Part shown: positions 14,631-42,721 of the stretch, in pieces
How the letters are laid out: each line of letters starts with the position of its first letter
Numbering within the stretch: the first letter of the stretch is position 1
From: Clytia hemisphaerica
Lineage: Eukaryota > Cnidaria > Hydrozoa > Leptothecata > Clytiidae
Reading direction: 5' to 3'
DNA length: 64,000 nucleotides
Assembly (NCBI GenBank): GCA_902728285.1
Contig: CACVBU010000638.1
Coordinates: 186,001 to 250,000, forward strand
Notes under the pieces: generated by a model
Seen by the model: the letters and a program-made list of their open reading frames with translations, nothing else
What the model was told of the DNA's origin: nothing
Database searches by the model: none
Translations under genes and position numbers: made by a program

Positions 14631-14704
14631 AAGAGAATAGCGCAGTTGGGAGAGCAATCGTCCGGCAAGCGAGAGGTCGTGGGTTCAATTCCCATTCGAT
14701 TCGT
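14631..14704 (+). tRNA. tRNA-like sequence, probably a pseudogene or SINE head
   Basis: A-box TAGCGCAGTTGG at 14638 and a perfect B-box GGTTCAATTCC at 14682, with a T-stem that pairs (GTGGG/CCCAT). The would-be anticodon loop CCGGCAA has C instead of U at position 33 (anticodon GGC, Ala, if read). The acceptor ends (AAGAGAA versus TCGATTC) pair at only a few positions. A functional tRNA is unlikely. Confidence 0.4.
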
Positions 14705-20005: not shown

Positions 20006-20185
20006 AATAGACCTTATCGAAATTTTTAATTGTTTTAAAAAGTGATGCATTGTGGGATTGTTTCGAGTGTATTACAATAGAATTCCCTCGAGGAATTCCT
20101 AAAAGATTTCTATTGTAATACACTCGAAACAATCCCACAATGCATCGCTTTTTTAGAAAAACCAAAAACTCCGATAAGATCTATT
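20006..20185. repeat. Near-perfect hairpin MITE
   Basis: Ends AATAGACCTTATCG and CGATAAGATCTATT. The inner arms (TGATGCATTGTGGGATTG.., 20047-20086) pair with 20113-20152, leaving a small loop with GAATTCCCTCGAGGAATTC, itself a palindrome. The minus-strand 73-codon ORF here is a shadow. Confidence 0.8.
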
Positions 20186-20627: not shown

Positions 20628-20695
20628 TCAAAGAAGCTTCCAAGAAACCAAGCAGATTCCCAGTGCAGTGATGGCTACCATGTTTGAAACCATAT
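20628..20695 (-). other. Last exon of the NIDO gene: hydrophobic C-terminal anchor
   Basis: Acceptor TTTTTCAG, 22 codons and stop TGA at 20628-20630. It encodes a hydrophobic stretch ([12 protein letters not shown]) and ends SWKLL with no cytoplasmic tail. Small residues just before it (Asp, Ser, Asn) could serve as a GPI attachment site; a single-pass anchor is the alternative. The exon was found by matching phase 1 and hydropathy, so it is the least certain exon of the gene. Confidence 0.65.
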
Positions 20696-23600
20696 CTGAA
20701 AAAGTAATCAAATATTACACCCTTTGATAGTATCATACACAATTCAGTGGCCCAGTAACTCTGTCAAGAGATACTGTATGAGGAGAATTCAGCTTGATTT
20801 TGTTTTCGTGGGTTGAATTTTACTGTAATTTTTGGTTATGGCCTAACTGATTTTCCACAGTGAGAGAGGGGGAGGACACTAGCTCTGTGACAAATGTGTT
20901 ATTGACACACCATTAGATCTTGCTATAAATATTTTAAATGTTACAATCACGTTATAATCCTATAATTATCCTTGAAATTAAGATAAATACAGAGTGAAGT
21001 CTCTATAACTTAGAAGGTTCGTTACTTAAAGGAACCAAGAAAAAACTTGTTCGAATAAAGGAGACATTACAGAGGTTCGAGTTATAGAGTCACTTCACTG
21101 TAGTAGTAAAACAAATAAAACATACCTTTATGGGCAGCTGATATCGGTTGACAATTAGTTGAATTTATGACTAATTTGCAATTCTGTTTTTCTGGCGTGG
21201 TTTGAATGTGTTTGAATGTTGTATGTTGAAAACTTTGGGTTGATTTTGAATAGTATTTTGTTGTTTGCAGTGCTGTTTCTGGAGATTTTGTTGGTATTGG
21301 TCGATGAGTTGTTGTTTGTAGAGGATGGTTTGTTGATGGTTTTAGTGAGATTGTTTTTTTCTCTGATATGGGTTTCGCTCCTGTCGTTCTTGGTGGTGGT
21401 GTTATCTTTGGCAAAGTGGTTTTTGGTGTAGAAACGATTGTCGAGGATGGACCAGTGGTCGTAGTCGTTGTCGATGACGATGTAAATGGAGCTTTAAAAA
21501 AGATACAATTTGTGTTGAAATATAAAGGGGGCACTAATTTCTGAGCGAATGAACCTTATTTTCAGTAGCGGCAGGGGGAGGGGCAGGGGGTAGTACCCCC
21601 GCCAGCGGCCAATTCTCTTGGGTGCCAAAAAGCGAAATACGAAAGGCGTAAAAGAAGATGCTTCTGATTACTAATTTCAGCGCCCCTTTTCTCTTTTTCA
21701 CCTTAGAATTGACAGTTTTTGGCCAAAAAGTGAGAAAATAGATATGCACCTTTTATTGTAGGCGCCAAAGTCTAAATCTTCTAAAATTGCCTTCCCAGTT
21801 TGCCGAATTTTAGTCGAGCCACCACGCTTCTGTTATATCTTAGGATGTTTGAAAAATATTATCTTGGTGAATTGAAAGACCAAGAAGAAATGTAGCATTT
21901 CCAAGAAGATAGAGTCTAGACAACGATGTTTCATTAGCCTATTTCAGGCTCGGCGGGAGCGGGGAGACCTCAGCCCCCCCAACTTTGAGCAAAGGAGTCT
22001 TCAGCCTCCCCACTTTTACGGTTGTTCCGCTGGGCCTGTATTTCATTCGTATGATTCGTGAATCCCAGGCCAAAAGGGGTACAGGGATGTGCTTTCTGGT
22101 CACGGTACCTTTTCTGCCTTCCATAAGTCCAAGGTAGGGTCGCAAAATCAATAAAAAGAGAAAAATCAGTCACTCGTATGGTATTTTTATGAAGGAATTC
22201 GAGAAAATTTCCCATTCAAGGTCACTTTTTTCGCAAATTTCGCAATAATAAAAAAAAACGTCCCCCTAGTAGGGTTCATTTTTTAGAACCTCAGTGGTAC
22301 ATCGCCGCCGGTTGGTAAAGGTATACCCCCTCCCCCGGGTCGTGTTTCTACTAAATTCTATTTTCTATTGAACTTACAGGGATAAAATGCACAAATCAAT
22401 GCATGTATATTTCCCTTTAAAGACATTAAAAAAATTGATTTATTTTCAATATTCAATTGACTTGGGTATCAAGAACTATTTCCGATCGTTGTTTGTCTTT
22501 CAAAAACGTTTCTCAATTTGCAAAAGAGGTGCTCTACCATAAAAAGTTGGTTACTGCAGTGACGTAGAAAAATATAATGTACTAAAAACACCAATCTTAT
22601 GATAATAATTGGAAAGTTTTGCAGTTGCTTTTTATTTTCTATAAAATAGGGTAATTAGTGAGGTCTGTTCCCGGGGGGGGGGGGTACTAGGGCAAGATGG
22701 GTTACGGGGATGCTCCGCTGGTCAGGGTACCTTTTTTAACCTCCACGAGTCCCAGGTAGGGTCGAAAAACACCAAAATAGAGAAATCAGTCCCTCGTGGG
22801 GTGCCTATTTTAGAAAATTTGGGGAAAAAGTAGAAAAATTGAGAAAATTTTGGAATTTCAGTCCTATTCAGGGTCACTTTTTTCGCAAATTTCGAGTCCC
22901 ACGTAGGGTCCATTTTTCGAACCTCAGCGGAGCACCCCCGTCGGTCGGCAAGGGTAGTACCCCCCCGGGGGTCTGTTAGCACAAAAATACTTCAGATGGT
23001 GATAAAAGCATGAAATTTGGCACAAATGATCCTTAGAGGGTCTTAAGCTTAATTTTAAACAGTAACTCCAAATTTTCATGTGGCTAACAGACCTCACTAA
23101 ATGTATATAGGTAGGAAATCGAAAAGCTAATTTTGCAGAAATTGAATGTTAAAACTTTGAAATATTTTTTTAACATATCATTATCATATATTTTCATATT
23201 GGTTTTAACCAGCAGTATATCTCCTACATGCTGCGATTTAGGATATAATATAACCTGACATTTAACTGTTACTTATCCGTCTCAATCACGCCAAGCGAAC
23301 AGCGTGAATGCGCCTCGGAAAGGATATGATACAAAAACATGTGGATTATGTTGGAACAAGATAGATTTCGATTTCCCATAAAATAATATATGAAAAATTG
23401 CTTGTTTATGTCATAACATTGACTAAAATAACAGAGGACAAACAGCTTTTCTTTTACACAAAAGGATAAGGCACTCGTGTGGATTATCTCAGTGGTAGTG
23501 TAAATCCTTTAAATGCTTGATTTCTATTACACAGGTCAAGAAAAAAGCATTTCCTTTTAAAAATCATGTGTCAATTTATTGAGCGCCAACCAAATCTGCC

Positions 23601-26600
23601 TGAAGATTGTCACCAAAGTAGCATGAAACTGCTAGTAGCAGAATAAAAAAGTGTCTTTTCTTCCTGACTAAATTTTAATCTGTAAAGATTCGTTCAAACT
23701 TGTTATAGACTTTTCAATTAACCCCCCTCCCCGAACAAGGGGTCACCCATCGGAAATTTCGTGTCTGATTAGCAGCCGACACTTGCGCGTGGACCTTTTT
23801 ATAAATTACGTCAACGAGTAGGGTTTACATCAAAATATTGCTACGGTGATTGATTCCCAGAAGAGCTCATAAGAAGTATAAAAGTAATATTTGAAGACTA
23901 AAAGGATTTAATCACCTTGGTCAAACTTACATTTATTGAGTTTGAAGCCCCGAAGAGGCTAGAGAGGAATCTGCAACCTTTCTGAAGCAAGAAAAAGTGA
24001 AGCCTTAAGTTTGCCCCGCATTTGTTTGAAAAACACGCGGTTCACATTTTTTGGATGGGAAATAAGTGGCTTCATTTCCCATCCTGTAGTTTCGGATCGA
24101 GCCCCTTCGGGGATTTAAAATCAATGGTGAGTTCTTATCTCATTGAGTTTGAAGCCCCGAAGAGGCTAGAGAAGAATCTTCAACCTTTCTCAAGCAAGAA
24201 AAAGTGAAGTCTTAACGATTTAAGCTGCATTTTGAAATTTTGTTTGATAAAATGCAGGTCAAGCGTGGCTTCATTTCTCATTCAGGAGTTTCGGATCTAA
24301 TCCCTTGGGGGCTTTGAAATCAAACTTACATTTACATTCACGATTCGTGATCGGGTACACAAACTGTCCAGGGACACCAATATTTGATTGAAATTCATAA
24401 CTCTCCGTTTGAATCAAAGAAATTTTATTAATTTGTTGCCAACGGCAACCTGGATTTGAAACACCATGCATAAATCTTGAAAATCTTGGTAAATCACCAA
24501 AATTGATGACAAGAAAAGTATCATTGTTAAGATTTTCACATGAAGCAAAGATCACTTGAAAATGAGCATTATATAACGTGTTAAATGTTGACACGACCGC
24601 ATGGTTCGTTTTACATCGGGCGCCAAATCCAGAATGCATTGAATCTGATTGGTTAATACCATATTGGGCATTGTTTGAGCTGTAAGCTGGTTGGCTTATT
24701 CCATACTGAGCATTTAGTTCCAAATATTTTGTAATAGCGTGATCTGTATGATCGAATGTCTGTTTTTCGTCAAATATCTCACGTATATAAAGAGCGTCTT
24801 CACCGTTTCTAGAAGGAAATAGAATCATTTAAAAAGGGATGAAAAACTTTGTCCCAAATTTTTCAATATCTTTTGTAAAAGAATTTTATATTGATAACTT
24901 GCTTTATTTGACATGATATCTAAGTTTTTAACCTTATCCAGAAATCTAAAGCTTCAATTTCTACCAGGGATGGCAGTGGGTTTACCAACTGACGGCATGC
25001 GCAGTGAAAAAAATGGCTTTTAGAATGACGTCCTTACAGTGCAGCAAAAATTCGGGAAATTCATACCCTTACAGTGCATTTTTCTCAAATTTTCAACTCT
25101 TTTAGAGCAAAAGAATCAAAATTTGCAATCTATCCTGAATTTACTGAAATATTTCAACCCTTACAGTGCATTTATCAAAAGTTCCACCCTTAAAAGGTAT
25201 AATTGCATTTCTGCTATCTTGAAAAGCATACCCTTAACCACCGCACATACTCGTCGGTCAATTAAAAAATGTGCCGCACTCGGGATATCTAGGCAAACTA
25301 AAACAAGTCGCTGTGATCAAGGAATAGTTTTTAATTTACACGTTTTGTGTTTTGAGAAAAGATTCAAAGGTAATTTTCAATACCTGTTAGTATGATAAGG
25401 ACTGGCATATGCAACAACTACATCCATCTTTTTTAGATCTTCATCCAAATCTAACATAGAGTCCTTGTCGTTGTTGATCACAATAAAACCATCTGGAAAG
25501 ATCTATGACAAAAATTGACAACAAATTGAATGTCTTTTTTAGAAAGAGAGAGGCTCTAGTGATTTTTTTTTCAAGTTTGTCATTTTTTGATTATCTGATT
25601 TATTAGACACTAAATATTGCTCAAAAATATGAGCGAAAATTCTTGTAAATTAATTGTGTTTTTCTTGTTTGAAAATTCAATAACCGTTAATTCTATGGGA
25701 AGTTGTTTCTGAAAGATTCTTCGAATCAACAACATTAGGAGGACAATATATTGGTCGAAAACTACAAAATATTGAGATATCAAACTATAAGAAATATTGG
25801 TTCCCTCAGTAGTGGAGAGTGGTATAAATTACCCTTTTTTCTTATTCAAATCTTCCTTTAAAAAATTCGAAAAAAATTTTAGGTCCCTTGAAAATTGAAT
25901 TAGAAAGAATCACTGTGGTATGCTATTGCTTACTTTCAATCGTGTTGCTGTTCTGTTTCCAAAAAATATCATTGGTTTTTGCAATTGAAATATTTGACTT
26001 CGTGCTGCATAATCTTCGATGAAATCCAAATAACCGAGAAACGAGTCTCCGTGTGGTAATCCATTTGCAACGAAATCTGAAATACAAAGTAACCAATCAA
26101 ATAGTGAGTAAATAAGTAAGTAAGTAAAGTCTGCGATCGTAATCGGAGGTGACCCGAAGGCTCCTCTTTCGATAGCTATCTACCCGAAGGTAGGGGAGGG
26201 CGCCACTCTTTCTCCCTAGATTTCTCCACTTATCCTTGATCTTCTCTTAATTGCTGGGCATCAAGCAGCGAGGCATCAAGTACCATTTTGGGAATCTTTG
26301 GTATGACCCGGCTGGGGGTTGAACCCAAAACCTTGCGAACCGTAGACGAATGCACTACCACTGCACCACGGTTTCAAATACAACCTCGTGGATTAAGGGT
26401 TTTGATTGATTCACAACCTGTAGACTAGTATTCTCACTCCATTAGGCTTGAAATCCATTAGGCGCCTACTTTAAAGGGATAAATTTTCGCGGGGATCAAA
26501 TTTTAAATCAAGTCCTAATGGAAATTTGGAAAGGTGTTATCCACGAAATATTTTTGAAAAAAATGTCAAATAACTACTTAAAATGTTTACTGGCATCAAA

Positions 26601-29600
26601 GTAGTAGTTTGCTGGTTACGAAATTTAATCCCCGCAAAAATTTATCCCTTTAAAGTAACTGACACATAAACTGTAGTTTTGAAAACTCATATAAAATTGG
26701 TCCTTGTAGATAAGTGGACGTTATCAAAAAGAATATTCTTGTTCATTATTTAAAAACTTACTAGTATTCGCTTTGCTTCTCCCATTAAAACATTGACCAA
26801 ATATCTTACTCAACTCATACACATATACACCAGGTGGTACATTAGGCCATTGCTTTGTGAGCTCACTCTTAGCAAAAATATAACGGCTCTCTATATGCTT
26901 ATACGGTTGTGCAACGTAACATCTAGGTACATTAATTCCAATTTGACCAATGATGGAATCTAACCGCTGATATAACAGAAAAAGCCAAGTTGCATCTTCA
27001 TTGTAAGCAAAGACAATTTGAAAATCATTTGCTTTCAAATGGGCGGGATTTTTTCCGTCCCTCTCGGGCGTGAACCATGTAATCATCACTAAATCTGTCA
27101 ACGGTTTTTCTTTGGAAATTTGATCTTTAGTTCGCAAAAGTAGTTTCGTAGCATTAGATAGCAGGGTTTGATCCTTTGATTGTTGGATATAGACGTTACC
27201 GGGCAGATCCGTGACATATCCGTATACAATTGAGGAATGATTATACGGAAACCATACGATGTCTTCTTTAGGTTTTTTGTTCAAGGAAACGAATCCATAT
27301 TTACTGACCTGAAAGATACAAACGTGTGATTCATATTAGTAATAAGAACAGCGTGTCCCAAAAAAAAAAGCGGAAAATTTTTTATATAAAGTGAAATCCT
27401 CATAATTTATGCAAAATTTTGCATATCTAATATTTTTTTCTCCAAAACCTATTTATTCATCTTGGAAATTGAATTGAATATCTATTGATTACAGAGAAAA
27501 TTGTAATCTTATTTCTATTATTCTAAACCCAGTTTAGAAATTGAGTTTTGAGGATTTTTTTTAATATAAAGATTTAGCCGCTCTTTACGGGACACACTGT
27601 ATGTTAAAGAAACTATGATAACCTTTCACACACTTTTCATCTCTGACAGTGCACGAAAAATAACGGTTTGTCCCAATAATTCTTTGGCGGTGTATCTCGG
27701 CAAACTAGTTTGTTAATTACTCATGTCGGAAGGCGAGAACATTATGGTGGCAGTCGTTTGCTGAAATATGAACTGCGTGGGAGGAAACGCTAGTCCAGGA
27801 AACCTTTGTGAGAAGGTGCAGATTTCAGCCACTTCCACCGACAGATTTTCTTGGTACGCTTACTTCGCTCATACGCTCACTATTCCCACGTGATATCGTT
27901 CTAGCCCGAATGAGGTTCTAGTCTATAATACGTTTATCGCTTCAAAAAAATTATCATTCATAACGAAGGAAAAAGAGTAAAATCTATTTACGTATATCTT
28001 GGTGACATTCTCTTGACCAAGGAGCATCGGGAATTTCAATTGAATCTCAATAAATGAATCGGAAGAGTTGTAAGGTACGAAAGCATCAGTTCGAGTCTCA
28101 TCAAATGGAAAATAATCTAAAGAAAAAGAAAGATTCGTTTCCCTAATCTTTTTTTTTCTAAAGATGCAGTTGATACCCTTTAATAGATCTTTTCATAATT
28201 ACGTCACGGACATCACTTGCCTCTTTTTGAAATCATTGCCAAGGTGATTATAACTCCCAACGGATTATATTAAAACTGCTTTCTATTCATTAAGAAATCA
28301 TTTAATGTCTCAAAAGACATAAGCACTATGGTAATTGTTTAAATACGAGGCAAAAAATGTTTGTGACGTAATTTATAAAAAGACATCTATTGGATTTTCA
28401 TCAAATAATAGATGAGCGCATCGAATGGTAGAACGTTGAATTACAGGGTGTCCCTAATTAAAGTATCGAGTTTGAACATGCGATTGAGTAGAAAAGTTTG
28501 TGTGTGTTATCGCCAAAATATAAGAACGTTCTCCATCACACAGGCTTATTACAAAAGGTAGTTACAACGTATAAATTAATCGTAATGACAAAGAAAAAAG
28601 AGGGAGAGCTTAAAATATAATTTTGTGAACACGCACATAAAACTTTCTACTCATAGTTGTGTTTCGACTCGATACTTTAATTAGGGACACCCTGTAGAGA
28701 GCACCAACCGTAACTTGAATGCGAAAATAAATTGTGTGAGTATAGTATAAGAAAGCCGCGGCTGGAATGATAACATCTGAACTTCTGTTGTTCTATCTCT
28801 GTCGTATTTGATGACTATTTTTTTATCAAGAGATCAGTAATGTAGCATCTTTAATGGTAAATTTTATTGGTTTGTCGTTAATACTTACTTCTCAGTGTGT
28901 TTTGGACATTAATGATATACCCTTGATAATACACTTGTATTATAAAATCATTGTAAAGGAAAGATCAACAATAAGAAATTTAAACAAGCACAAAATGGCT
29001 GGGCTGAAAGAACTCAAAAATAAACAAAGTGCCTCGAATGCCTTCGCAATATTTCAGTGAATCTTTTAGAAATCAAGAAAAAAGTTTAAGATAATACTGT
29101 GAAAGTTTCAAGCCAGCACCTTCAAAATTTATCATTCAAACTGACAAGAAAGTTGTCATCCTTGAATATAGTTCTTATATTTAAATTTTGGCGAAAAAAC
29201 TATTATATTTCCAAAATACCTCTAAAATATGTCCAAATTAGTTCAAGTTCTATTGGGTACATTCAAAGATATCTAGAAAATAAAAACTTTTTGTGAAGGA
29301 AAATAAGAGAAAAAATTCAAAAACTGTCTACCAATAATAAACTGAGCATCTTGATGTTCTTATAAAGCTCGGAGACAGAGATAGACAGCAATTACTGAGA
29401 AGACAATGTGGTAATATTCCAGCCCGGCTTTCTTTACTGGTGTGAGGCTGTACTCTAGGTACCAAATAAACGGGGGGGGGGTTCGAATAAACGGGGGGAG
29501 GGGGTTGGAAAATTTTTGAAATTTAAAAACGGGGGGGAACTAATGCCGGGGGGGGGGGTGGAAATTGGACTTATGAAAATCCCAAAATAAGGTAAATATA

Positions 29601-32600
29601 GGCGAAATCAGGCTTTTTGGAGCAAAATAAGGGGACTTCTTTTAGCCAATTGAAAATATTCTTTAAAATTAATAAACGGGGGGTCCTAATAAGGTCCGGG
29701 GGGGGCGGGGGTTGGAAAATTTTCGAAAAATTAACAAGCGGGGGGGGGGGACCGTTTATTTGGCACCTAAGAGTACTCTCGAGTACCAATTAAATAATAG
29801 ACGGGGAGATTGGAATCAACGTTTTTGGTGAAAACAGTGTACTTGAAATTTGTTTAGTAGCCCAATCAACTTTAGAGATATCACGTATGCATAAATCAAA
29901 GCCTTTCTATAATTGATGAACGTTTTGGAACGACGTTATCTAAGAAAAGAATTATGCTTGTCAAAATCAATTCTTGAACCCAGTTACACGTTCCATGCAC
30001 CAAATTCTGCTTAAAAACCTTTCCTCTCAGGTCCTCTGAAATTAATGAAAGGGTTGTTTTTCTTACTATTGCGTTTTTTACATCCATGATCTGTCAGTTG
30101 ATGAATTTTGGTCATTTCTTGAAAATTTGATCTTCTCAAATCCTCATATGATGGAATATGGAAATAAACGTTTTTCTCACAAGTATTATCCGAGTAACCT
30201 GCCTCAGCCCAACGCTCGCTGTCAACTCTATAGTATATTGAAATCCCAAACGCAGTTTCCCCATCACTAGCCAATATCATTTGAAAACTGTTTTTATAAC
30301 CACGGCTGAAGATATCATCAACTGCATCTCGAACGTTAATGAAAGTCACTACAAAAGCATGATTCATTCGAAAACCAGTCTGATTCAATGCTTTATTAAT
30401 CAAGTCAAGATCGGATTGATCGAATGTTTCTCGATAATAAATGTTCCCGATCGAATCTGATTCGAAGTCACTGTATAATGTAGAGAAAGCGACAGAGTCT
30501 TTGGTCATGAGCTCTGTTTCGTATTGAGAAGCCCGTAGTAGCGATAATCTGCCATTTGGTGATAGCTGGAAAGTAAAATGAAGACAAAAAATTGATTCCC
30601 TTTTCGACTGGTACTTTACCTAAAAATATTTGAGATGCCTTACAGGCATAACCTAAAGCAAAGTTCTGAGGTTAGGTTCGAGTTTGCTATAGGTGCCTGC
30701 TGGGAAACAGGGACAACACGTACCCAGTTGGCACACAACGTTGTTTTAACGTTATATGGACGTTGTGAACATTAGATAAACGTTAAAAGAACGTTACGTG
30801 TGCCAGCTGGGTATTTTCAAACTTTATGCTGTGGTCATTTTAAGATTTGGAAGAAAAGTGTTTTCTTTCATAACGGCGAAATTTGGTTAAGTTAGTTAGG
30901 TTAAATTTTTCTATCCTAACATTAATTAATGCATTGATAACTTGCTTACGTAAAGAAATCTGCTGAGCTTTGTAAACAAAGGCATTGTCTTTTTCAATTC
31001 AATATGACGTTCTGCATCGTCGAACTTGCTCAATATTGTGTCTCCGTTAGATGAACCGTACGGTATAAAGGCTGGAAAAAGAAATTACTGAAATTAGACT
31101 CTTGCAGGAATAATTGTAAGGGACTCACGTTCCTAAAAAAAATATAAAATATTTCTATAAACATATCAGGAGTCTCTTAAATAGAATCTAAAGATTCACA
31201 CGTGCAATAAATTCTTTTCCTTGACAAAGACTCTTAGGTCAGAATAATTATTCATTCTTTCGTATTAACCTCAGTAAATCGAGTTTCTACCATGGGTGTA
31301 AATTCATCACCGAAAGAAATTAGCATGCATATGCCAAGATCTTGTCTGTACACAGACCCAGCTATCTACGGCTAATTTCAAAGTTAATTGCCGTAGAGGA
31401 TCTATTGTCGTTGTCTTTTCTCATTTGAGATTTTTCAAATCAACAGCTGCGATGGAGTGCTGGTGAAAGAGGGGAGACGATTAGAGAAGTCTTGCTAATT
31501 ATAAATCATACTTCATCGCAGAGGTCTCCGTACGGGAAATTTTTATCAAACAGATAGTGCGCACAGAGTGTACTACGAAGCGATAAATGTGAGATACACT
31601 TTGGTTTAGAGTAACTAAGATGTCGGTAAATCTAAGGAATCAAAAATATTATTCCAAATGAAACAAGAGTACCTTTGTGCATACAAGTTTGATCGTACAC
31701 TTTGAAAATATACTGTCCAGATCGACCTGTATTTGATAGCACTCTGTTCTGATTTCCAGTAGTAGATGAAAAGAATACATCTAGTCTGTTCGCATCCCAG
31801 TTACAATTCTTGCTTTCATACGCATTCTTTGTTCCATACCCGAGGTAGGTATGATATTGTATGATGATATAAGCCTCCATCCCGTTACTGACCAGTGCTA
31901 CTTGAAACGATTTCTAAAGATAAAAGATTCAATTATAGTTGTGTACACAGCATGGCGTTCAAGAGTGCAACTCTTGAGTAGTGAAAAGGTACCCTTACAA
32001 TGCATTTTACTGAAAGTTTCTGACCCTTACACTGTTGTAGTTTGTTTTATATCTTGTTTTACCGAAGCCAAATGAGCCTGTTATGTCGACACAATGTACA
32101 AAACAAATCAAAATGGGTGCAAGTTAAAACTATAAATAAATATGAGATTTTTATTGTCAGACTTCCAATTGAGCTGTCCCCAAACACACCCTTGTAGTGC
32201 ACTCCATCAAAAGTACACCCTTACAGTGCATTTCAAGGGTCTCGAAAAACCTACCTTAAGGACGGCACATGCCGTGGGTCGGACCATATGAGTCCCCCCC
32301 CGGGGTTTGACTTCGAGAGATTTCATTCGGCTTCTGCTATGTATGAATTGACAAAACATCAACGAGTGTATAGACTTCGAAATGGTTATTCGCTTCAATT
32401 ATTTCAGTCCGGAGTTAATACTATATAGCAGCCTTTAAAGTAGAAAGTCAAGCTCAAGACACAGGTTTTAATTCATAGGGACGTGTTTTTTTGACTGTAT
32501 TAAAATTCATGTTTTGCACCGCCTTTATTTATTGAGATCTTTATTGTTTCTTTGAAAATACGAATTGTTACCCTGAGTATCAGAGATTAAGTTTTCAAAG

Positions 32601-35600
32601 AATATATTAACCTCTGGAGACAAATAATAGAAATTTTATCGCACATGTGTCAATCTAATCACTGTAGAAAAAAAAACAAAGATGAAGAGCAAATGTTACC
32701 ATATAAATGTCTAGCAGACTGTATCAGTATGCAGTTTACTATTTACGAATTTCCCAGAAACCTCCAAGTGTAATCGAAGGCTGCGTTTAGACCAATTGGA
32801 TTTGTAATTTGGCATTTGCTCATGAGGGATTCGATTTTGATAGCTTTTCCATTTTATTTTCTGTCATGGCATTTAAGGAATCGTCTTTTTAGAGTCATTA
32901 CTGAAAAGGTGATTCCCTCAAGTTCAACTTTGACAGATCAAACAATGAAAAGCATGGAATTTCTCAAAAACTGCAGTCATTAAGTCATTTGCCGTAGGGC
33001 TAGGCTATGGCAAATCTTGCAAATTTTACAATCTAGAAAGAAACTGAATAATAGTATTGAATAATATTTCAAATGCCAACGAAATGCCAACACGCTGGCA
33101 TCATTAGAAAGAAAGAACTGAATAATAGTATTGAATAATATTTCAAATGCCAACGAAATGCCAACACGCTGGCATCATTAGGCATTTGAAAAACCGAACA
33201 ACTGACTCTCTTTAAAAAGCATTGATGACATTGTTTAGTTGTGTTTTCAACGACGGGAATAAAAATATCAACTTTGAACTTCATCCAAGATCTTGGATGG
33301 TCGTCACGGTTACTTTTGTCTTCGTTGATTGCGCGCTGAATAGAATTTGGATTCGTCGGTACAGCGTCGATATATGATTTCGACCTGTGCTTTTCACGGT
33401 AACGAATTTTCAGTAAGCAGGAATTTTTTATGTCCGTCTACCGGCCAAAATACTCAATCAGTTTTTGAAACTCAATCCAAAATAAATTAAATTGTTTCTA
33501 GTGAATAACCTTTTTTGTAGTTTATGGTTTCAGAAGGTTCCTTTAATATTCCGAAGCTACAAATTTCATTATCGCATATATAGCTAGATAAAACAGATTA
33601 GCTATCGAAAGAGCGACCCCCCTCCGACTGTGGTCAAAGACATACTTACAGATTTCATTTTCACATAACAAATATCATAGTCTTACCGGTTTGGAGTTGG
33701 AGCCATCTTCAAGCATGTTGTCATAATCCACCATAAAAACATGATTGGTATTGAAATCCCTTCCAAGGAAAAACTTCATTTGTGAATTAGCAAGTTGTAT
33801 GACTTTAGAGGATGTGTCAGTGATCTCAAGGTAAGAAATGTTTCCTGTTGGGAAAATGATGAAAGGTAAGCAAACGTTTAAAACAATGTTCAGACGTTAC
33901 AGTTTGGTAATACTCCTACATGGTGTTTGTTACGGATAGGAAGTGCGCATATTGATTTCGGAACGTCTTGGAGTAACGAAGTGGAGCAGTACCGTTCCGA
34001 TGAAAATAGTGGATCGAAAGCGTTTCGATCTGTTTTGTTTTGTAACGTCTTCATTTTTGACGTTTCGAATTTTGAAGTTTACACAGTGTTTCGGAAAACC
34101 CGAAACGTCTGAATGTGGTTTTAGACTACGCCATGAATTCCTTCGTTTTAAGCGTAAGGCTGACCTCTTAAAAAAAAGGCCTAAAAGCCAGGTGCTGCCT
34201 ATTGTGTAGACTAGAACGTCGACAGTCGGTACTCTTGTTAACTTGAACAATTTTTCATCGTCAACTAACAGATTCCTACCCTACTACCTGAAGTTTTTGA
34301 AGAGGACTTTGATAGAGGTTTTCTTTTCCCTTTTTAAATAACCAACCCCTTACGAATCTCGAGAAAATGTGCGTTCCCCGTGCGAATGATAGACATATAA
34401 ACAAGGGCTTGAAAGGCATAGAAATAATTAGCTCTAGTTTAGACGGTCCACCTTCTACCTTGCCTTCCCTCATTTTTGACGAAAGTCGGCAGAAAATCGA
34501 CTGTCTAAAGTCAATGTGATGCCTTCTTTTGACGTCAATGCAACGACTTGTTCTATCTTTTTCAAGCAAAGATTTGAAACTGCAAACTTTTCTATCGATC
34601 TTATGCCGTCGCTTACATCGAGAGGAGGCAAGGCAGAAGCAGGCTCTTACCGATAACTAGGTCTTACAGGTAGGAACTATCAAAGAAAGGCAGGGAATTT
34701 GAGGCAACAGTATACCTCTTCCATCTTGCCCTGTATTGAAGTTGACATTCGCAAAGTAGATTTTATTGTACACCATGTTTTGAGGTTTGATTATCCAACT
34801 GAATCGTGAATTATTTAGATTCTCCAATGAAAGGTAGCCATCAGTACCCAACTAGAGTTAAAGAAAGACATCTTCAGTAGCATAGACATGAGCGGCGCAA
34901 ATTTTGTGAAGGAGAGCAGACTTTTATGAAACAGTAATTATTTATAGTCCGAATGCCACATAAAGATAGCAACTTGCCAGAATCGATTTTTTATTCTTCT
35001 TTTGTTGGTGAACTTCTCAGGATTGCTCGTTCTACGTTACTTTTCGAGGACTTGAAAGTTAAAGCCAAAGTTTTTATACAAAGAATGCGATGTCAAGGTG
35101 CTGAAAACGCAAAGTTAGATTGCAGTCTTCGACGGGTTATAGTTCGTCATTTTTCAGAATTTTCAAGATTTCAACTCTCTCAAGATTCACTCGTTCGCCA
35201 GCTCTTGCGGTGAGCGGTCACGGTGTACGGGGCTTCGAACCGGGTTATAGTCCGATTTTTTAAATTCTCATTCTTTCCCCACTCTTTCCATCTTATTCTT
35301 TGAACTGTAAAATGTGTGTGAGAGCCACAGGGTTGGATAGTGGCAATCCAATCCCAGTTCCTTCTCTTCTAGTATGCTTTCTTCAACGTTGTGGCAGAAA
35401 CGTGTCAAAGGTGTGGCAACTTTGTCTAGTAGAAAGTATACTTCTTTTCTCATTGTAATTTTAGTTTCTTCGGCTGGTTCCGTGTTACGTTTTAGTTTAT
35501 TTTATATTATTGCGCGCGTTTTATACTTTCAATAAACACATCTTTTTACTATCTTTTATCTGTGGTGGTGTCTAATTAACACTGCTTGGCCTACCTACAC

Positions 35601-38600
35601 AACCCTATTTCCATCATATAGGAGGATATTTTCACAAATGGCCGAAATCCTGTGTAGGTCGAAAACTGAGGAACAGATAATGTGTTTTCTTGAAATATTT
35701 TTTGACTCATATTGAGTTACTTCTTTCCATCTTAACTCATATTGAGTTACTTTCTTCCTTAAAGTCATTTTAGATCACTAGTTTTACATTGACGGATTTC
35801 TATGTCATCATATTTTCCTTTTCTACTCCAACCTGATTGATTTTCTGTGAATGTTCATTCTAGATTTTTGTTGTATTTGTATTGTCTTTTTGTTTTGTGG
35901 GTTTTTGTATTTATTGTTTCCATTTTGAGTAGTTGAAGGTTTTATACTTCTAGACTATATATATAGATATGCCCTCCGATGGGTCGGAATGGGTCGTACC
36001 CACGATGGAGTAGGAGTCACAGCGCAAGCAGACATTGTAACCCTACAGATGCGAGCTGCCGAGCCATGGTGTATACCACGACATTCGAACTACACGGGAG
36101 AACGGATGTCCTCGCAGGTGTAGAACCTCCTAAGTGTCTCGGCACACCACAATGTCTGGAATATCTACCCATACTCTTGTATCAGAGTTATGGTACCCAA
36201 TTCCCCTCACATGGCATGGGTTGACCCGGGCGAAGGAGCATTCACTTGCCAAGTGAATCGTAGTGCCACGGTGGGTATCGAACTCGAAACTCCTGGATAG
36301 AAGTCAGGCACGATAACCACTACACCACTACGCCGTAATTATTTATTCATAATATAAAAAGGTAACTACTGTGTCATTAAAATCTGCTCTCCTACACAAA
36401 TTTTGCACCCCTCTTGTCCACGCTACTGATCTTCGTGGTACCCCTCTTAAAAGTTCTTGCTTACTATAATAGAAAATTCAGAGCATGGAGACGAGAAATA
36501 ACAGAAGAAAGGGACAAATAATAGCAAGGGCCTCTCTTTAGGTTTCAAAAAAGCGAATACAAAAAGGGCGTTAAAAATGGCAGTCTCCTACCCAGAACCA
36601 CTTGCTCCATTTTTAATTATACTGATGGACGTGATACGCAATCTTGTGCGCTATCAGAATCATAAAAAGTGAACTGAGGTACTGAGTTCGAGTTTATAGA
36701 ATTCGAGTATTATTTGAATATGGCCTCTACATTATACTATAAAATAATATTTATGAAATATAATTCAATTATTTTACAATTAGGGCCATTCTATTTAACA
36801 TCTACAGGGGGTGGAAGAACATTTCCAGTGGATAATGTGAAGAAGATATTTCCTTGGGGTCAAACGCAGGTTTTTTTATTTTCCATTTGGTAAAAAATTA
36901 TTTTAAAATTTCCAGGCGTAAAAGACTGATTTTAGTTCGTCCACCCTCACTTTAAAATATAAAGAAAATTTTTTCCCTTGTATGTTTAAAAATCGAAATA
37001 ACCCATTGTAATTTCTTCAAATTGTTGAAAGATTTTCTTTTCTGCCAGTATTATTGGTCTATTTATGACATGCACCGTTGCAATGTCTTCCACGGACCCA
37101 ACAAGCTGATTGGTTGAAAGTGACATATTGACTGATTTTACGTCACTTACAGCCAATCAGCTACCGTGATGTAATGCCAGAAGACATGTCGATGATTGGT
37201 TGAAAGTGACATATTGACTGATTTTACGTCACTTAAAGCCAATCAGCTACCGTGATGTAATGCCAGAAGACATGTCGATGATTGGTTGAAAGTGACATAT
37301 TGACTGATTTTACGTCACTTACAGCCAATCAGCTACCGTGATGTAATGCCAGAAGACATTGCGATGGTGTATATCATAAATTGACCCAGGAAGTTCGGTA
37401 AAGATTTCATACTCCATAAGAAATATACTCACATAAAAGGTGTCATGGTAACCACTGAACAATGGCATTTGTTTTGAGAGTCGAATCTTATCCACGTTAC
37501 TGCTCCCACGTGACAAATATTTATAACCAAGAAATTCCGTCACTTTAGGAAAATACTTCTCTAAAAAAAGAAAGAGAAAGAGAAAAGTGATCACTTTTAG
37601 ATCTTAAAACCGAGCCCGGATAAAAACAGTTCAATTTTCCTTCTTCCAAATGATCGCCGAATTCCGGCACTCCGTCCGAAAAAAAGGCCTGATTCCACCA
37701 ACCGTGAAACCCAGAAGGGGGCTTTGTCTACTAACACGAAAGTCTGACAGACTCAATAGTCGGCCAATAGACCTCTTCATAAATTGCGTCATGAGGAACG
37801 CTTTTAAAACCTGCTTTTAAAATATTACTTTGGCAATTGATTCCCAGAGACGCTCACAAAAAGTTCACTCTATTTTGAAATAGAAAATAATACTTGGAGT
37901 CTCAAGGGATATAAGCACCATGGTAATGGTTTCAAAAAGAGGCAGCCTTTGCACTCAAAACAATTTATGAAAAGGCCGAAGAATCGGTAGTAGGTAGAAT
38001 CAGTGGAATCTCCCTAAACCTTCCCACTAGCTAGGTTATGAGAAAACAGCATGGCGTTATTATAGGCCATTTCACAGTCGCAAAGCGTAATGGGTAATCA
38101 GGACAATTGCGCGCTAATAACGACTTACTATTGGTCCAATGTTTTGATAATTTTTGAATATTTTTGCGTCTAACCAACGGGAAACCGTTATCGAGGCGCA
38201 ATTAGTCCTGATTACCCATGATCCATTTTGACTGATAAAAATGGAATAGAGCCTTCTCTTCCGATTCTAACTCTCCTGTGAGAAGGGAAAGAAAGATATT
38301 CCAGCGTTTGAAATTGTTTAAAGGGGAACTCAACTAATTTTTCACTTTTGGTTTTTGTTTGGATTTTTTGGATTTATTAAGTCAAACAAATACGGAAAAA
38401 GTCTATTTGACTTGTATCTTTAAACACTACATCTCAGAACACTCCTCTATCTTTGCTTCAAAAAGTGTGTTTAAAAAGAACCCCCCTCTTTTACCAGAGA
38501 AAAAAAATTATACCTGAATCACATTCTAATGCGTTGATTTCCCATATAAACTTGCCAGCTTCACCTATATTAGATTCTCTGGCCATATCCGTTGCTCTTT

Positions 38601-41600
38601 GAGGATTAATAATGGTGGATTGGCAATTAGTAATATTAAAACCAACAATTGCTGCGTCATATAATTCCTTGTAAATTGTGATGATGTACATTTTGGATGT
38701 GTTGTAGGTTATGATGATTTGGTAATGGTTAAGGTTTTTCCTCCTGAAAGTTTGATTAATTATTATTAGGACCAAAAAGCTAGATGCTGAATGAACCTAC
38801 CTGATGATGAAAGTTAGATAGCAATAAGGAAAAACATAAAAACAATCAATCAGAAAATATAGCGGTTAGCGAAAATGCATTGAATTTCATCATTGATTGT
38901 TTATGGGGGAGAGGGAAGGGGAGTAGAGAAAAAAGAAATAGAAATTTCCAGTTGCAAAAATCAGTTTTATTGACAATTGAATCATGCTTCATGGTGGGCA
39001 TTGTTTATCAATAATGTTTTTGTGCGAAAAAGCGAAGAAAAAGTCCAATGAAAATCTGCAAAAACGGCAATCTCCGGCAAAATTTCTCAAACATCGGACT
39101 TGACCATGTTTTGGGCATTGCTAATACGCATCTTTATGCAAAAAACAACAAAAAAACTAATGATGAAATCTTGAGAAAATGCCAAAAAAAACGGTTTTTA
39201 GGCACCTCCTACCTACCTCTGAGGTAGGTCTAAAAAAGAATCAATATAAACAAAAATTGCAAAGAATATCAGATTAAATGTGGGAGGATGAAGTCTCCAA
39301 AATTCCGTCTCCACCGGGCAATTAAGAAGAACACTCAATTTTAATCTCTGTCTGGGCTAGAGCTGCTGAAGCAACCATTTTAAGTAGTTCAATTTCTGAA
39401 AAATGTGCTATTGGACTTTTCCAGAAAAAAACCGTATACCCCCTGTTGAGGAGGTCCATTTCCGTTCCAAGGGGTAAGGTTTCATATGTGGCGGAATTCC
39501 ATAGGGAGATACAAAAATCTGTCTAAAATAACTGGAATTCCTTAGGGGTAGCTTTTTAAATCCTATTAAAATTCAGAATTCCGGAGGGATTTAAGCCTGA
39601 GATGGCCTGGAATTCTAGGGGGTTATAGCATTTTCAGCCACAGAGGGATGGACCTCCTCAACAGGGGGTATACGGTTTTTTCTGGAAAAGCCCATTGGGT
39701 CTCGGACTATCGTTTGCCATAGTTTAAGATTATCTAAAAAGCTTTTCATTTGGGATTTAGTGAAAAAGATAAAGCAGATTTCATGCCTACTCGTGCCTCC
39801 TGAGCAACATGGTTTGCTTATAGAAAGAAATGTGCATAGCAACAACATCCTCACCTTTTTCGACCAATTTTATAGGTAATGACAAGGGTGTTGAGTGGAA
39901 CAAAGTTTGCTACGTTCATTTTTTGAAGATCGCTATCAACCAAATCTTTAATGTTCTGAAAATAATGAATAAGTTATACGATTAAACGTTTTTTGTTGTC
40001 AGTTTTATCAATTCCCGGGGGGGGGGGGGGGCAGCTGGGCAAAAGGACCGACGGGTATGTGCGGGTCCTAAGGGTATCTTTTCCAATATGTTTAAAATGC
40101 ACTGTAAGGGTCGGAAAAACTAGAGATGCACTGTAAGGGTAGAAATATCAGAAAATTCTTGAAAAATCTAGATATTTTGACCAAAAATACTAGAATTTTG
40201 ACCATTTTTTGCACGAAAGGGATCGAAAATTTAGGGGAAAATGCACTCTAAGGGTATGATTTTCACTGATTTTTGCTGCACTGTAAGGGTGCAATTTTAA
40301 AAGCCAATTTTTGGCCCGCACATACCGTCAGTCCGCAAACCCAGTGCCCCCCCCGGGTATCAATTAGGCGAGACCAATTTAATTTGTTGTTCTACAGGCC
40401 CGACCGACCCTATTTTTGCTAAAGTCAAAAAAAATAATTATATTGAATTTCCACTACAATATATTTTACACACTAGTTATTTTTAAGAATCAAATTTGAA
40501 TAAAGCTGAAAATTAATTCAAGAAATTGAAAAATTTAGAAAATCAAGTATTCCATACACTAAGATTTTATTATGATCTTCATCAAAGATAAAATAAAGTG
40601 AATTTTTTAACCAGATATTTTTTGGAAAACATTTTCGGTGTTTACCAAACTCTGATAAATGAAAAATTTATTCTTATTTTACCGACCGACTGACATATTT
40701 TGCTAAAGTTCTGCCCGTAGAACAACAAATTAAATTTGTCTCGCCTTACCGGGCCAGTAAGGAAACATCACAATATTCAAATGTCTAAGTTTTCTGGTAT
40801 ACTGTTAATAGATTGTCAAAAGGAAGTAAAATTGGAAACACTAATGAATTACCAATGCAAGTTCTTTTAGCCTGCGAGAGAATCGAAATAGAGAGAAACC
40901 GACATTGACAATTCGTTCAATTTATTCATACAAGTAATTAAAAAAAGGAATAATTGTTTCATTGCAGAGAGTTTTGTATGTAGAAAATTAGAAGGTGCCA
41001 AAAAAGAGGGATTCGAATTATGGAGAGGCTACTGTATTAAACGTTATTTTTATAAGAACAAACTATAAGAACATAAGGCTTCGATGGCTGAAATATTAAG
41101 AACAAGTTAAGAATATTTTAAGGCTTTGTGGACTCTAAGAAAACCAAATTTCTTAGGAAATGGACTAAAATACTCTAAAAATGGTGAAATAAGAACATTT
41201 TTACGCTTGAAACCCAAAAAGTTAAAATAATCCGAAGACTTCAAAAATTTTGGAAATTCTTATTAAAAAAAACACGTACCTTTGCTTGAGATTGATAGAA
41301 GCTGACATAACCTTTCTTTCCTGGTTCGAAATCACCACAAAAAGGGTAAAACCCTCTTCGATGATCTTTGATATAATTTCCCTTCTTACTGTAATGATAT
41401 CCCTCAGTAGAAATATAGCCATGGTTTCTTATCTGAAGAAAACAAAAGATTATTTCATAAAATTCGCGAAGGTTATATCAGCTAAATTCGTTTCAAGAGT
41501 AATATTCGCGAAAGTTTCTGCTCTTTAAGTACAAGGCACTATGCTAAACAGTTCACAGTTAGGAAGACAAAGAGTATAACAGAGATTTCCTAGAAATCAG

Positions 41601-42721
41601 AACACATCATTTGTATAAAATATTGCTTCGATGGCTGCTTCTTTCCACCAGAATTGGAAATTTAAGGGATTCTGCGGTTGAGATCCAAATAAGTACGTGT
41701 ATTTAGGAACTTACATAAACATGATCTTTTGTATCGATCCCTTGAAAATTTGAGTTGAAAGGCACATCCAGCATCAATTTCACTCGATTTGAAGTCATTC
41801 GCTTTGCGCCATCCTCAGGGTAGAAAGTCAATGCTGTAAAATGAAATACATTGACAGTGAATTGGAGCGATCAACTTCTGAGTGATTACAAGTAAACTGA
41901 TTTAGTGTACTCTTTTTTTATAAGCATAACGTTTAAAATAAGCACGCTTAGGCTTAAATTCGGTAAAAAATAAGGACAATGTCAAGCATACATCCAAGCT
42001 GTAATGTAAAAAGAAATCGTACAGCTTTTCTAAAGCTTTTTAGGTTTTTTTAAAGGAATTTGAGCTTTCTTATACCAAAAAATTTCGCCTACGGCGCCAA
42101 ACTACAAAGAAATTCATTCTATGAGCCGAATCAATGTTCCGACTTAAAAATTCGAAATTTTCAAGAACCCAAGGAAAACAAATCGAAGTCCAAGCAGAGA
42201 TTCACGAGATTTTGCTAAGCATATTGAGCCTCGATCCGATTTTCCCGTATGCTTATATAAAAAGAGCGCGTACGTCAACCCTAATAAATATTCTAACATG
42301 ATAAATCGTATGTTACATCTAAATAAATTTAGCAATGTATGTATAGATGAATATTATGTTATTATTGAATAAAATTGAGCCCTTTTATAAAGTAGGAAAT
42401 TGCCCAGAGGGGATTTATCTAAATAATCCTGCATTTACTAAAAATAGACAAAAAGAACGACAAATTTCATAAAGAGCGACAAATGTTGACATACCCAACG
42501 AACCCCGACCGAAAGTGCCTGCACCACACCTACGTATTCATTCCTCTTTGCTTATCACAGGAATTAACTACATATGGTTTAAAGAACGACATACTACGCA
42601 TACGTGTTTACAATGCAGGATTCTTTAGAGGAACAGACTGCCCATTAAAGAAGCATTTACCTTCATTTAAGAACACCAAGTAAAGATTAAAAAGTAAAAC
42701 AACGTAGCATAAATTCACCAT
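20628..42721 (-). CDS. Secreted, surface-anchored protein with five tandem NIDO-like modules and a mucin-like stalk (18 exons, 1,264 aa)
   Basis: Exons from the 5' end: 42661-42721, 41715-41833, 41280-41432, 39855-39955, 38514-38743, 37433-37560, 34716-34851, 33687-33844, 31673-31913, 30950-31071, 30067-30565, 27992-28116, 26762-27308, 25934-26076, 25384-25502, 24330-24808, 21126-21491, 20628-20695. All junctions are GT-AG, phases agree throughout, and the total of 3,795 nt is an open frame. Residues 1-20 are a signal peptide (hydrophobic [12 protein letters not shown]). Then come five copies of a nidogen-like (NIDO) module of about 200-250 aa, a Thr/Ser/Pro-rich linker (residues 1121-1242) and a 22-residue tail with a hydrophobic stretch ([12 protein letters not shown]). 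NIDO domains occur in nidogen, tectorin and mucin-4-like matrix and surface proteins, so an adhesive or matrix role is inferred. The module call rests on motif order (Y/FPYG..D start, YGFVSL strand, FQVIFA strand, SNIG.PG.F end). No EGF, vWD or AMOP domain was seen. Confidence 0.85.
20987..21103. repeat. pogo-like MITE in the last intron of the NIDO gene
   Basis: Ends TACAGAGTGAAGTCTCTATA and, inverted, TACAGTGAAGTGACTCTATA. The interior has TTCGAATAA and TTCGAGTTATAGAG words. Confidence 0.6.
21126..21491 (-). other. NIDO gene exon 17: Thr/Ser/Pro-rich mucin-like stalk
   Basis: 122 residues dominated by Thr, Ser, Pro and Lys ([23 protein letters not shown]), the composition of O-glycosylated stalks. 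Near the end it has two Cys and an N-glycosylation sequon (NST). Both exon edges are phase 1, like the module borders. Confidence 0.8.
21950..22340. repeat. Diverged G/C-capped element
   Basis: Holds GGTACCTTTTCTGCCTTCCATAAGTCCAAGGTAGGGTC, which closely resembles the left part of the 22669 element. Ends TATACCCCCTCCCCCGGGTC. Lies in the NIDO gene intron. Confidence 0.5.
22669..22976. repeat. G-run-capped element, AGTCCCAGGTAGGGTC type
   Basis: CCCGGGGGGGGGGGGTACTAGGG on the left and AGGGTAGTACCCCCCCGGGG on the right are inverted caps. The interior word GAGTCCCA(G/C)GTAGGGTC occurs near both ends. Third internal-motif type of the capped family. Confidence 0.7.
22980..23920. other. NIDO-gene intron, nothing recognised
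   Basis: AT-rich intronic sequence without ORFs or paired ends. Confidence 0.35.
23936..24319. repeat. Tandem pair of MITEs next to a splice donor
   Basis: Two copies (about 23936-24125 and 24143-24319) of the AAGCCC family. Each starts ATTGAGTTTGAAGCCCCGAAG and keeps AACCTTTCT.AAGCAAGAAAA. The 15-mer TCAAACTTACATTTA flanks the pair on both sides (23921-23935 and 24320-24334), and the right copy includes the splice donor of exon 24330-24808. Confidence 0.7.
24330..26076 (-). other. NIDO module 5 (three exons)
   Basis: Exons 25934-26076, 25384-25502 and 24330-24808 encode residues about 874-1120. The start has the PHGDSFL strand and [13 protein letters not shown], then IFPDGFIVI, a lengthened middle with two near-repeats around NAQYGI, and [11 protein letters not shown]. 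The end has [13 protein letters not shown] and a final Cys pair (PGCRW .. RECKC). Longest of the five modules. Confidence 0.8.
24969..25264. repeat. Diverged capped element, CACTGTAAGGGT type, G-runs lost
   Basis: Left GGCAGTGGGTTTACCAACTGACGG matches the inverted right end of the 40014 copy. The motif CCCTTACAGTGCA occurs about three times and the right end is CCGCACATACTCGTCGGTC. An artefactual 118-codon ORF overlaps it. Confidence 0.6.
26112..26372 (-). repeat. tRNA-derived SINE, family 1, reverse copy
   Basis: Read on the minus strand, the head GTGGTGCAGTGGTAG and B-box GGGTTCAACCC lie near 26372-26310. The body matches 13708-13955, and the 3' tail is a (TTAC)n tract at 26112-26126. Sits in the intron between modules 4 and 5. 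Confidence 0.75.
26467..26660. repeat. MITE with ACTTTAAAGGGATAAATTTT ends
   Basis: Left ACTTTAAAGGGATAAATTTTCGCGGGG, right CCCCGCAAAAATTTATCCCTTTAAAGT, inverted. The second half of the interior is loosely inverted to the first. Confidence 0.7.
26762..28116 (-). other. NIDO module 4 (two exons)
   Basis: Exons 27992-28116 and 26762-27308 encode residues about 650-873. The start strand is [12 protein letters not shown], followed by KYGFVSL, VMITWF and DFQIVFAYN. The closing Cys pair is PRCYVAQ .. FGQCFNG. The whole domain core is in one exon of 547 nt. Confidence 0.8.
27348..27601. repeat. mariner-like MITE in the module 4 intron
   Basis: Left ACAGCGTGTCCCAAAAAAAA, right TTACGGGACACACTGT inverted. 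The end lies about 40 bp from the acceptor of exon 26762-27308. Confidence 0.6.
28444..28694. repeat. mariner-like MITE with TA target duplication
   Basis: CAGGGTGTCCCTAATTAAAG on the left and CTTTAATTAGGGACACCCTG on the right form perfect inverted ends, continuing to about 30 bp (TATCGAGT). TA flanks both sides. CAGGGTGTCCC ends are typical of mariner-group elements. Confidence 0.8.
29451..29774. repeat. G-rich element with AGGTACCAAATAAACGGGG ends
   Basis: Left ACTCTAGGTACCAAATAAACGGGGGGGGG, right CCGTTTATTTGGCACCTAAGAGTA inverted. G-runs of 6-10 occur about eight times, several followed by GTTGGAAAATTTT. Unrelated in sequence to the CCCGGG-capped family but similar in logic. Confidence 0.65.
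30067..31071 (-). other. NIDO module 3 (two exons)
   Basis: Exons 30950-31071 and 30067-30565 encode residues about 443-649. [13 protein letters not shown] starts the module, followed by [18 protein letters not shown] and [10 protein letters not shown]. The Cys pair is DNTCEKN .. DHGCKKR. The first exon ends phase 0 as in all other modules. Confidence 0.82.
30721..30813. repeat. AACGTT-array miniature element
   Basis: Ends TACCCAGTTGGCACACAACG and, inverted, TACCCAGCTGGCACACGTAA. Four AACGTT palindromes lie inside. A second copy at 60690-60791 sits in a hAT-like element. Confidence 0.7.
31985..32302. repeat. Diverged capped element, CACTGTAAGGGT type
   Basis: ACCCTTACAATGCA, ACCCTTACACTG and ACCCTTACAGTGCA occur in order. 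The right cap CCCCCCCCGGGG is at 32295. The middle is interrupted by unrelated sequence. Confidence 0.5.
32675..33405 (-). repeat. Dispersed repeat with a conserved short reading frame, copy 2
   Basis: Homologous in two blocks to 1085-1530 (see there). On the minus strand 33215-33405 keeps the frame ([24 protein letters not shown]). Between the blocks is a 74-bp direct duplication (33043-33182). Confidence 0.55.
33043..33182 (+). repeat. Two-copy tandem repeat, 74-bp period
   Basis: ACTGAATAATAGTATTGAAT through the TGGCATCATTAG word occurs twice, nearly unchanged. Confidence 0.8.
33599..33650 (-). repeat. Family-1 SINE 3' fragment
   Basis: TTAGCTATCGAAAGAGCGAC followed by CTCCGACTGTGGTCAAAGAC matches the end of the 13708 SINE on the plus strand. 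No head. Confidence 0.4.
34945..35215 (+). pseudogene. Reverse-transcriptase C-terminal remnant (retrotransposon)
   Basis: Plus-strand frame 34953-35213 reads [20 protein letters not shown], then [12 protein letters not shown] and a basic QRM..QGA helix before the stop. The pattern ([18 protein letters not shown]) resembles the end of reverse-transcriptase ORFs in invertebrate retroelements. The frame opens abruptly with no upstream RT motif, as in a 5'-truncated insertion. The 370 bp that follow, up to an AATAAA at about 35530, may be its 3' UTR. It lies in a NIDO-gene intron, opposite to the host gene. Family level is uncertain. Confidence 0.45.
35962..36336 (-). repeat. tRNA-derived SINE, family 2, intact copy
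   Basis: Read on the minus strand from 36336: CGTAGTGTAGTGGTTATCG (A-box region) and GAGTTCGATACCC (B-box). The body follows with ATTCACTTGGCAAGTGAATG, GGTCAACCCATGCCATGTGA and GGTACCATAACTCTGATAC. The plus-strand ORF across it is a shadow. Confidence 0.75.
37111..37368 (+). repeat. Three-copy tandem repeat, 86-bp period
   Basis: Units start at 37111, 37197 and 37283 (TGGTTGAAAGTGACATATTG) and are almost identical. Each holds TTTTACGTCACTTA and CCAATCAGCTACCGTGATG. The array ends 65 bp from the donor of exon 37433-37560. Confidence 0.9.
38320..38470. repeat. Truncated AGGGGAACTCAAC element
   Basis: Begins TTTAAAGGGGAACTCAACTAAT, the left end of the 50442 element. The right end is not visible. 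Confidence 0.45.
38793..39230. repeat. MITE with GACCTACCT ends
   Basis: Left GAACCTACCTGATGATGAAA, right ACCTACCTCTGAGGTAGGTC. The interior (AAAACGGCAATCTCCGGC, GCATTGCTAATACGCATCTT) is one unit of the composite 48236-50017 element. Starts 50 bp upstream of an exon acceptor. Confidence 0.65.
39413..39693. repeat. MITE with about 47-bp inverted ends
   Basis: GGACTTTTCCAGAAAAAAAC at the left pairs with GTTTTTTCTGGAAAAGCCC at the right. The arms continue through ATACCCCCTGTTGAGGAGGTCC. The interior has TGGAATTCC-like palindromes. Confidence 0.8.
40014..40358. repeat. G-run-capped element, CACTGTAAGGGT type (copy 2)
   Basis: Nearly identical to 5115-5469, same orientation. CCCGGGGGGGGGG.CAGCTGGG on the left, CCAGTGCCCCCCCCGGG on the right. 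Lies in a NIDO-gene intron. Confidence 0.75.
40366..40747. repeat. MITE with about 60-bp inverted ends
   Basis: AGGCGAGACCAATTTAATTT on the left pairs with AAATTAAATTTGTCTCGCCT on the right. The arms extend through TTGTTGTTCTAC and CCGACCGAC. It abuts the capped element, with 7 bp between. Confidence 0.8.
41041..41279. repeat. AAGAACA-array MITE whose end is a splice donor
   Basis: Same order of internal words as 5828 and 18462. The right end TTCTTATTAAAAAAAACACGTAC on the plus strand reads GTACGTGTTTTTTTTAATAAG on the minus strand, and its GTACGT is the donor of exon 41280-41432. Confidence 0.65.
41913..42271. repeat. AAGCATA-array MITE (sister family)
   Basis: Left TTTTTTTATAAGCATAACG, right GCTTATATAAAAAGAGCGCG. 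The interior repeats AAGCACGCTTAGGCTT and AAGCATATTGAGCC. Same architecture as the AAGAACA family with a different iterated word. A second copy is at 63543-63945. Confidence 0.55.

Follow-up and report, generated by a model that had tools for sequence, protein, structure and literature searches.

We analyzed a stretch of 64,000 nucleotides from the genome of the hydrozoan Clytia hemisphaerica (positions 186,001 to 250,000 of contig CACVBU010000638.1, assembly GCA_902728285.1), which we call the window. On its minus strand, from 42721 to 20628, lies a gene for a protein with five tandem modules of the NIDO type. By analogy with known NIDO proteins, we think it likely that this is a secreted, anchored, probably glycosylphosphatidylinositol (GPI)-linked glycoprotein of the adhesion or apical-matrix type.

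Rebuilding the gene from the sequence gave 18 exons with consistent phases, a protein of 1,264 amino acids, and a single stop codon, at the end of the coding sequence (20628). The length and both ends are identical to those in a preliminary description of this DNA, which had also proposed 18 phase-matched exons. Exon borders were placed by eye from the raw sequence and then tested with a script. All 17 introns are GT-AG, and the 3,792 coding bases contain no internal stop codon. A profile of the modules recovered all 15 of the module exons (exons 2 to 16) from 1,613 six-frame fragments of at least 25 amino acids, with E-values from 4.1e-57 to 3.6e-6; because the profile was built from these same exons, their recovery speaks to uniqueness, not to independence. 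The best match outside the modules had an E-value of 0.13, so no sixth module was found among these fragments. Codon usage also fits the modules: in 15 of 15 module exons, the frame of the model had a positive log-likelihood and the best one of the three. For exon 1, the frame of the model was the best of the three, with a negative score. Judged by its sequence, this is a sound gene model, which the preliminary description had read correctly.

The five modules

We searched each spliced module singly against Pfam-A, in which the NIDO family is PF06119 (curated cutoff of 25 bits). Modules 1 to 4 exceeded the cutoff, with 32.4, 36, 45.3, and 38 bits (E = 1.2e-7 to 1.3e-11). Exons 11 and 13 also match PF06119 without any splicing, in a three-frame translation of the gene strand (36.6 and 28.4 bits; E = 6.1e-9 and 1.9e-6); two further sets of frames gave no match. 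Counting against a row of five NIDO modules, spliced module 5 had no match to PF06119 in Pfam-A at E-values up to 1. Thus, the expectation that each module would match this family held for modules 1 to 4 and failed for module 5.

Module 5 could be placed by profile comparison. Against the profile of modules 1 to 4, hhalign gave a probability of 95.2% (E = 2.5e-8). Against an alignment that was built without it, module 5 scored 32.6 bits, as compared with 10.5 bits or less for 2,000 shuffled sequences and 1.2 bits for the reversed sequence; in a leave-one-out test on the common alignment, it scored 43.5 bits. By these comparisons, module 5 is homologous to the NIDO modules 1 to 4. The five tandem NIDO-like modules that had been proposed are therefore upheld, four of them by scores above the Pfam cutoff and the fifth via the profile.

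Between single modules, hhalign gave a probability above 60% for 2 of the 10 pairs (modules 2 and 3 and modules 3 and 4) and below 8% for the other 8. Modules 2 to 5 are only 15 to 19% identical to module 1, which implies that the copies are old or fast-evolving. Structure models of the exon 11 and exon 13 parts had mean predicted local distance difference test (pLDDT) values of 53.5 and 47.3, respectively, which are too poor to judge the fold.

Six columns are invariant across the five modules, including two cysteines close to the C-terminal end; in each module, this pair is probably joined by a single disulfide. These pairs account for 10 of the 17 cysteines in the protein. The others are in the signal peptide (1), the hydrophobic end (1), the stalk (2), module 5 (2 extra), and module 1 (C92, which stands alone). 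The protein also has 13 N-glycosylation sequons.

Two modules have features of their own. Module 5 (24808-24330, minus strand) is longer than the other modules and has an insertion with a doubled AQYGI motif; its extra cysteines, C1026 and C1051, lie near and after the insertion. Module 1 contains a furin-like RKRR (residues 143-146), a possible cleavage site, where exon 4 (39855) joins exon 5 (38743) on the minus strand.

The intron positions suggest how the modules multiplied. All five modules share a glycine that has a phase-0 intron four residues ahead of it. The signal peptide, the modules, the stalk, and the end are separated by seven borders, each of which is in phase 1. From the shared intron site and the phase-1 borders, we infer that the gene arose by serial duplication of a phase-1 (1-1) exon unit. 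Intron gain or loss would have followed: the additional introns of modules 1, 2, and 5 differ in phase and place, and modules 3 and 4 lack them. The common intron could serve as a marker to trace how multi-NIDO proteins arose.

As for other domains, no other Pfam family was found at E-values up to 0.05 in any gene-strand frame from 20601 to 42800, and EGF, AMOP, vWD, and ZP domains were not found in the modules, the stalk, or the minus-strand frames; domains that are split across short exons could escape both searches. Within the modules, the stalk, and the gene-strand frames, Pfam thus agrees with the earlier statement that there is no further globular domain.

The signal peptide, the stalk, and the C-terminal end

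Among five candidates for a phase-1 first exon between exon 2 and position 45800, exon 1 is the only one that resembles a signal peptide (the background rate is 45 of 823). Exon 17, with 29 Thr, 15 Ser, and 15 Pro in its 122 amino acids, is the only exon candidate on either strand that has at least 80 amino acids and at least 45% Ser/Thr/Pro, in a scan that covered each strand except for its first 100 and last 2,000 bases. Exon 18 is one of two with GPI-like tails among 34 candidates for a phase-1 terminal exon down to position 16000. With SAA at residues 1238-1240, a short spacer, and a hydrophobic end, it resembles a GPI signal in shape, as judged by general rules and not by a trained predictor. 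The signal peptide, the Thr-rich stalk, and the hydrophobic end of the preliminary description are all supported in this sense, and the GPI-like tail of exon 18 is plausible, not proven.

Several observations weigh against the 3' end as we have drawn it. GPI-like tails have a background rate of 46 of 2,355 (2%), so that about 0.7 would be expected by chance among 34 candidates. Exons 17 and 18 have negative codon scores, and the frame of the model is not the best of the three in either. The acceptor of exon 17 ends in AAAG, which is weaker than the other acceptors. The frame of exon 16 stays open for 19 codons beyond its donor. Finally, the stop codon is not followed by any AATAAA within 900 bases: the nearest one 3' of it is at 19707, about 920 bases away, and an ATTAAA is at 20030.

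These observations would be expected if the modules are real and the gene ends differently, as a secreted or a conventional transmembrane protein that does not include exon 18 and perhaps not exon 17. However, exon 17 has the required phases as well as its singular composition, and exon 18 holds the first GPI-like tail downstream, is preceded by a CAG acceptor rich in pyrimidines, and is compatible with a GPI signal. Also, the donor of exon 16 is GTAAGT, and the read-through beyond it resembles, by eye, a stretch about 200 bases further, as in repeat sequence. We consider a different 3' end to be unlikely, although it is the alternative that best survives.

Exons and neighboring features

Table 1. 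Exons of the NIDO gene, in window coordinates
Feature	Position	Strand	Content and evidence
Exon 1	42661..42721	-	Start codon and signal peptide; ends in phase 1
Exon 2	41715..41833	-	Module 1, N-terminal part; module profile
Exon 3	41280..41432	-	Module 1; PF06119, 1.2e-7 across spliced module 1
Exon 4	39855..39955	-	Module 1; PF06119 on spliced module, module profile
Exon 5	38514..38743	-	Module 1, C-terminal part; carries the module's Cys pair
Exon 6	37433..37560	-	Module 2, N-terminal part; module profile
Exon 7	34716..34851	-	Module 2; PF06119, 9e-9 across spliced module 2
Exon 8	33687..33844	-	Module 2; PF06119 on spliced module, module profile
Exon 9	31673..31913	-	Module 2, C-terminal part; carries Cys pair
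Exon 10	30950..31071	-	Module 3, N-terminal part; module profile
Exon 11	30067..30565	-	Remainder of module 3 in a single exon; PF06119, 1.3e-11 spliced, 6.1e-9 unspliced
Exon 12	27992..28116	-	Module 4, N-terminal part; module profile
Exon 13	26762..27308	-	Remainder of module 4 in a single exon; PF06119, 2.2e-9 spliced, 1.9e-6 unspliced
Exon 14	25934..26076	-	Module 5, N-terminal part; module profile
Exon 15	25384..25502	-	Module 5; module profile
Exon 16	24330..24808	-	Module 5, including the insertion; no PF06119 match, related to modules 1 to 4 by profile
Exon 17	21126..21491	-	Mucin-like stalk, 122 aa, 48% Ser/Thr/Pro, phase 1-1
Exon 18	20628..20695	-	Hydrophobic C terminus and stop codon; GPI-signal-like; weakest exon

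The introns of the gene contain several repeats. Two near-perfect tandem arrays lie in introns of module 2: three copies of 86 bases at 37107-37366 and two copies of 74 bases at 33035-33181. The first of these begins, on the minus strand, 67 bases past exon 6, where the frame of exon 6 is still open. A repeat of 130 bases occurs as an inverted pair (24964-25093 and 40227-40356; 78% complementary) in two introns.

Elsewhere in the window, the nearest recognized gene upstream of the NIDO gene has an RNA recognition motif (RRM) exon (PF00076, E = 7e-17) behind a Pro/Met-rich open frame that has no Pfam match (45897-46184 and 46987-47421, minus strand); it may be similar to RBM42. On the same strand, 4023-4364 is an exon of a neuronal calcium sensor-like protein, with matches to Pfam EF-hands, to hippocalcin-like protein 1 (E = 8.4e-29), and to neurocalcin delta (E = 1.2e-28). 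By eye, 8871-9182 (minus strand) looks like the first exon of this calcium sensor-like gene; it has no Pfam match. An open frame at 3-638 (minus strand) has a charged stretch and a match to the PHD finger that is below the cutoff (E = 0.00015; 22.1 versus 24 bits), and it is perhaps open reading frame 1 (ORF1) of a retroelement. At 14637-14696 (plus strand), a match to transfer RNA (tRNA) is barely above the Rfam gathering score (31.1 versus 29 bits; E = 0.016), and ARAGORN was negative; this may be a tRNA-derived repeat. Finally, a tandem array at 52465-53109 has 4.0 copies of a 160-base unit, with 96% matches.

Proposed role and comparison with known NIDO proteins

In the mechanism that we propose, a signal peptide is followed by five tandem NIDO-type modules of about 200 to 250 amino acids and then by a Ser/Thr/Pro-rich stalk, which is probably O-glycosylated. 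The C-terminal signal would probably be replaced by a GPI anchor, with the SAA at 1238-1240 as the candidate attachment site. The stalk would raise the row of five NIDO modules above the cell surface, probably the apical one, and the row may serve as a multivalent rod, adhesive or cross-linking, by which the cell is tied to the extracellular matrix. The mode of action would be like that of DEX-1 or alpha-tectorin, minus their EGF, ZP, or vWD parts. By analogy, an extracellular, matrix-attaching role is suggested by the signal peptide, the probable glycosylated stalk, the probable anchor, and the row of NIDO modules.

We also considered whether the five strongly diverged modules might provide different binding faces on a stalk, as in an immune-type or self-recognition receptor, instead of a matrix rod. 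The low identity of modules 2 to 5 to module 1 would fit such a receptor, and the stalk and GPI-like end are compatible with one that has no cytoplasmic tail. In bivalves, an orthogroup of NIDO proteins has expanded (51 of its 63 proteins are from bivalves, according to the available part of PMC8059625). However, the divergence of the modules appears to be old, not recent; we saw a single gene and no family; and NIDO is not described as a recognition domain in the excerpts of the literature that were consulted for it. We consider a receptor of this kind to be improbable, and by analogy, a structural or adhesive role would be well ahead of it. It is very improbable that the locus is a decaying gene or a prediction artifact, with exons that can be joined but no longer make a protein: the model is known from the sequence alone, without a transcript, and the introns contain repeats, but the GT-AG introns, the stop-free coding sequence, and the coding frame of the module exons argue otherwise.

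If the protein is an anchored cell-matrix rod, it might, more tentatively, represent a class of surface proteins that has not been described, in which NIDO, elsewhere found singly or in pairs beside other domains, is a stand-alone repeat, as are Ig and cadherin domains, and was multiplied through duplication of phase-1 exons in one animal lineage. If so, NIDO would be able to function on its own as a serially repeated domain. The ligands of NIDO domains are little known; a protein made of little else would be a clean object for questions of binding and structure. For general biology, this would be a further case of domain duplication.

The literature searched, which leaves out most subscription papers, yielded no protein in which NIDO occurs more than twice, and entries in domain databases are possible. 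Within this literature, the maximum is the two NIDO domains of DEX-1 from Caenorhabditis elegans, so the architecture is indeed unusual, as the preliminary description had it. Besides its two nidogen domains, DEX-1 has one EGF-like domain, a low-complexity zonadhesin-like part, and a transmembrane segment; it is found in apical matrices, appears to act with ZP proteins, and is able to function when secreted (PMC6325711, PMC11304992). Our protein is like DEX-1 in having more than one NIDO domain, a C-terminal membrane anchor, and an extracellular location (the last two are predicted for our protein). Unlike DEX-1, it has five NIDO modules, a mucin-like stalk, and a GPI-like end, and no EGF domain was found.

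The precursor of alpha-tectorin (TECTA) is GPI-anchored, and vWD domains are present. TECTA is similar to our protein in that it is an apical matrix protein with NIDO, and it is classed as a ZP protein and as a nidogen-plus-EGF protein (PMC7886070). No ZP, EGF, or vWD domain was found in the protein described here. MUC4 has a long mucin part on its N-terminal side. MUC4 and the mucin4-like proteins of cnidarians share NIDO, Ser/Thr/Pro-rich sequence, and an anchor (a probable one here) with our protein; in the MUC4 type, NIDO occurs with AMOP and vWD, often with EGF, and with a transmembrane segment (PMC9080433, PMC4890752). The NIDO domain of MUC4 is reported to act partly via fibulin-2 (PMC4902942, citing others). 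In our protein, AMOP and vWD were not found.

Nidogen is a soluble linker of the basement membrane, with EGF and further globular domains. Its G1 domain, from which the NIDO domain takes its name, consists in essence of one NIDO domain; in a 2014 study, the NIDO domain of nidogen-1 had no structural homologue that could be found (PMC4227867). Nidogen has a single NIDO domain, whereas the protein described here has five. A glass-sponge sequence that is annotated as nidogen showed a NIDO domain and no other, so a protein with NIDO alone is not a novelty in itself. Overall, the Clytia protein is an unusual combination of known parts.
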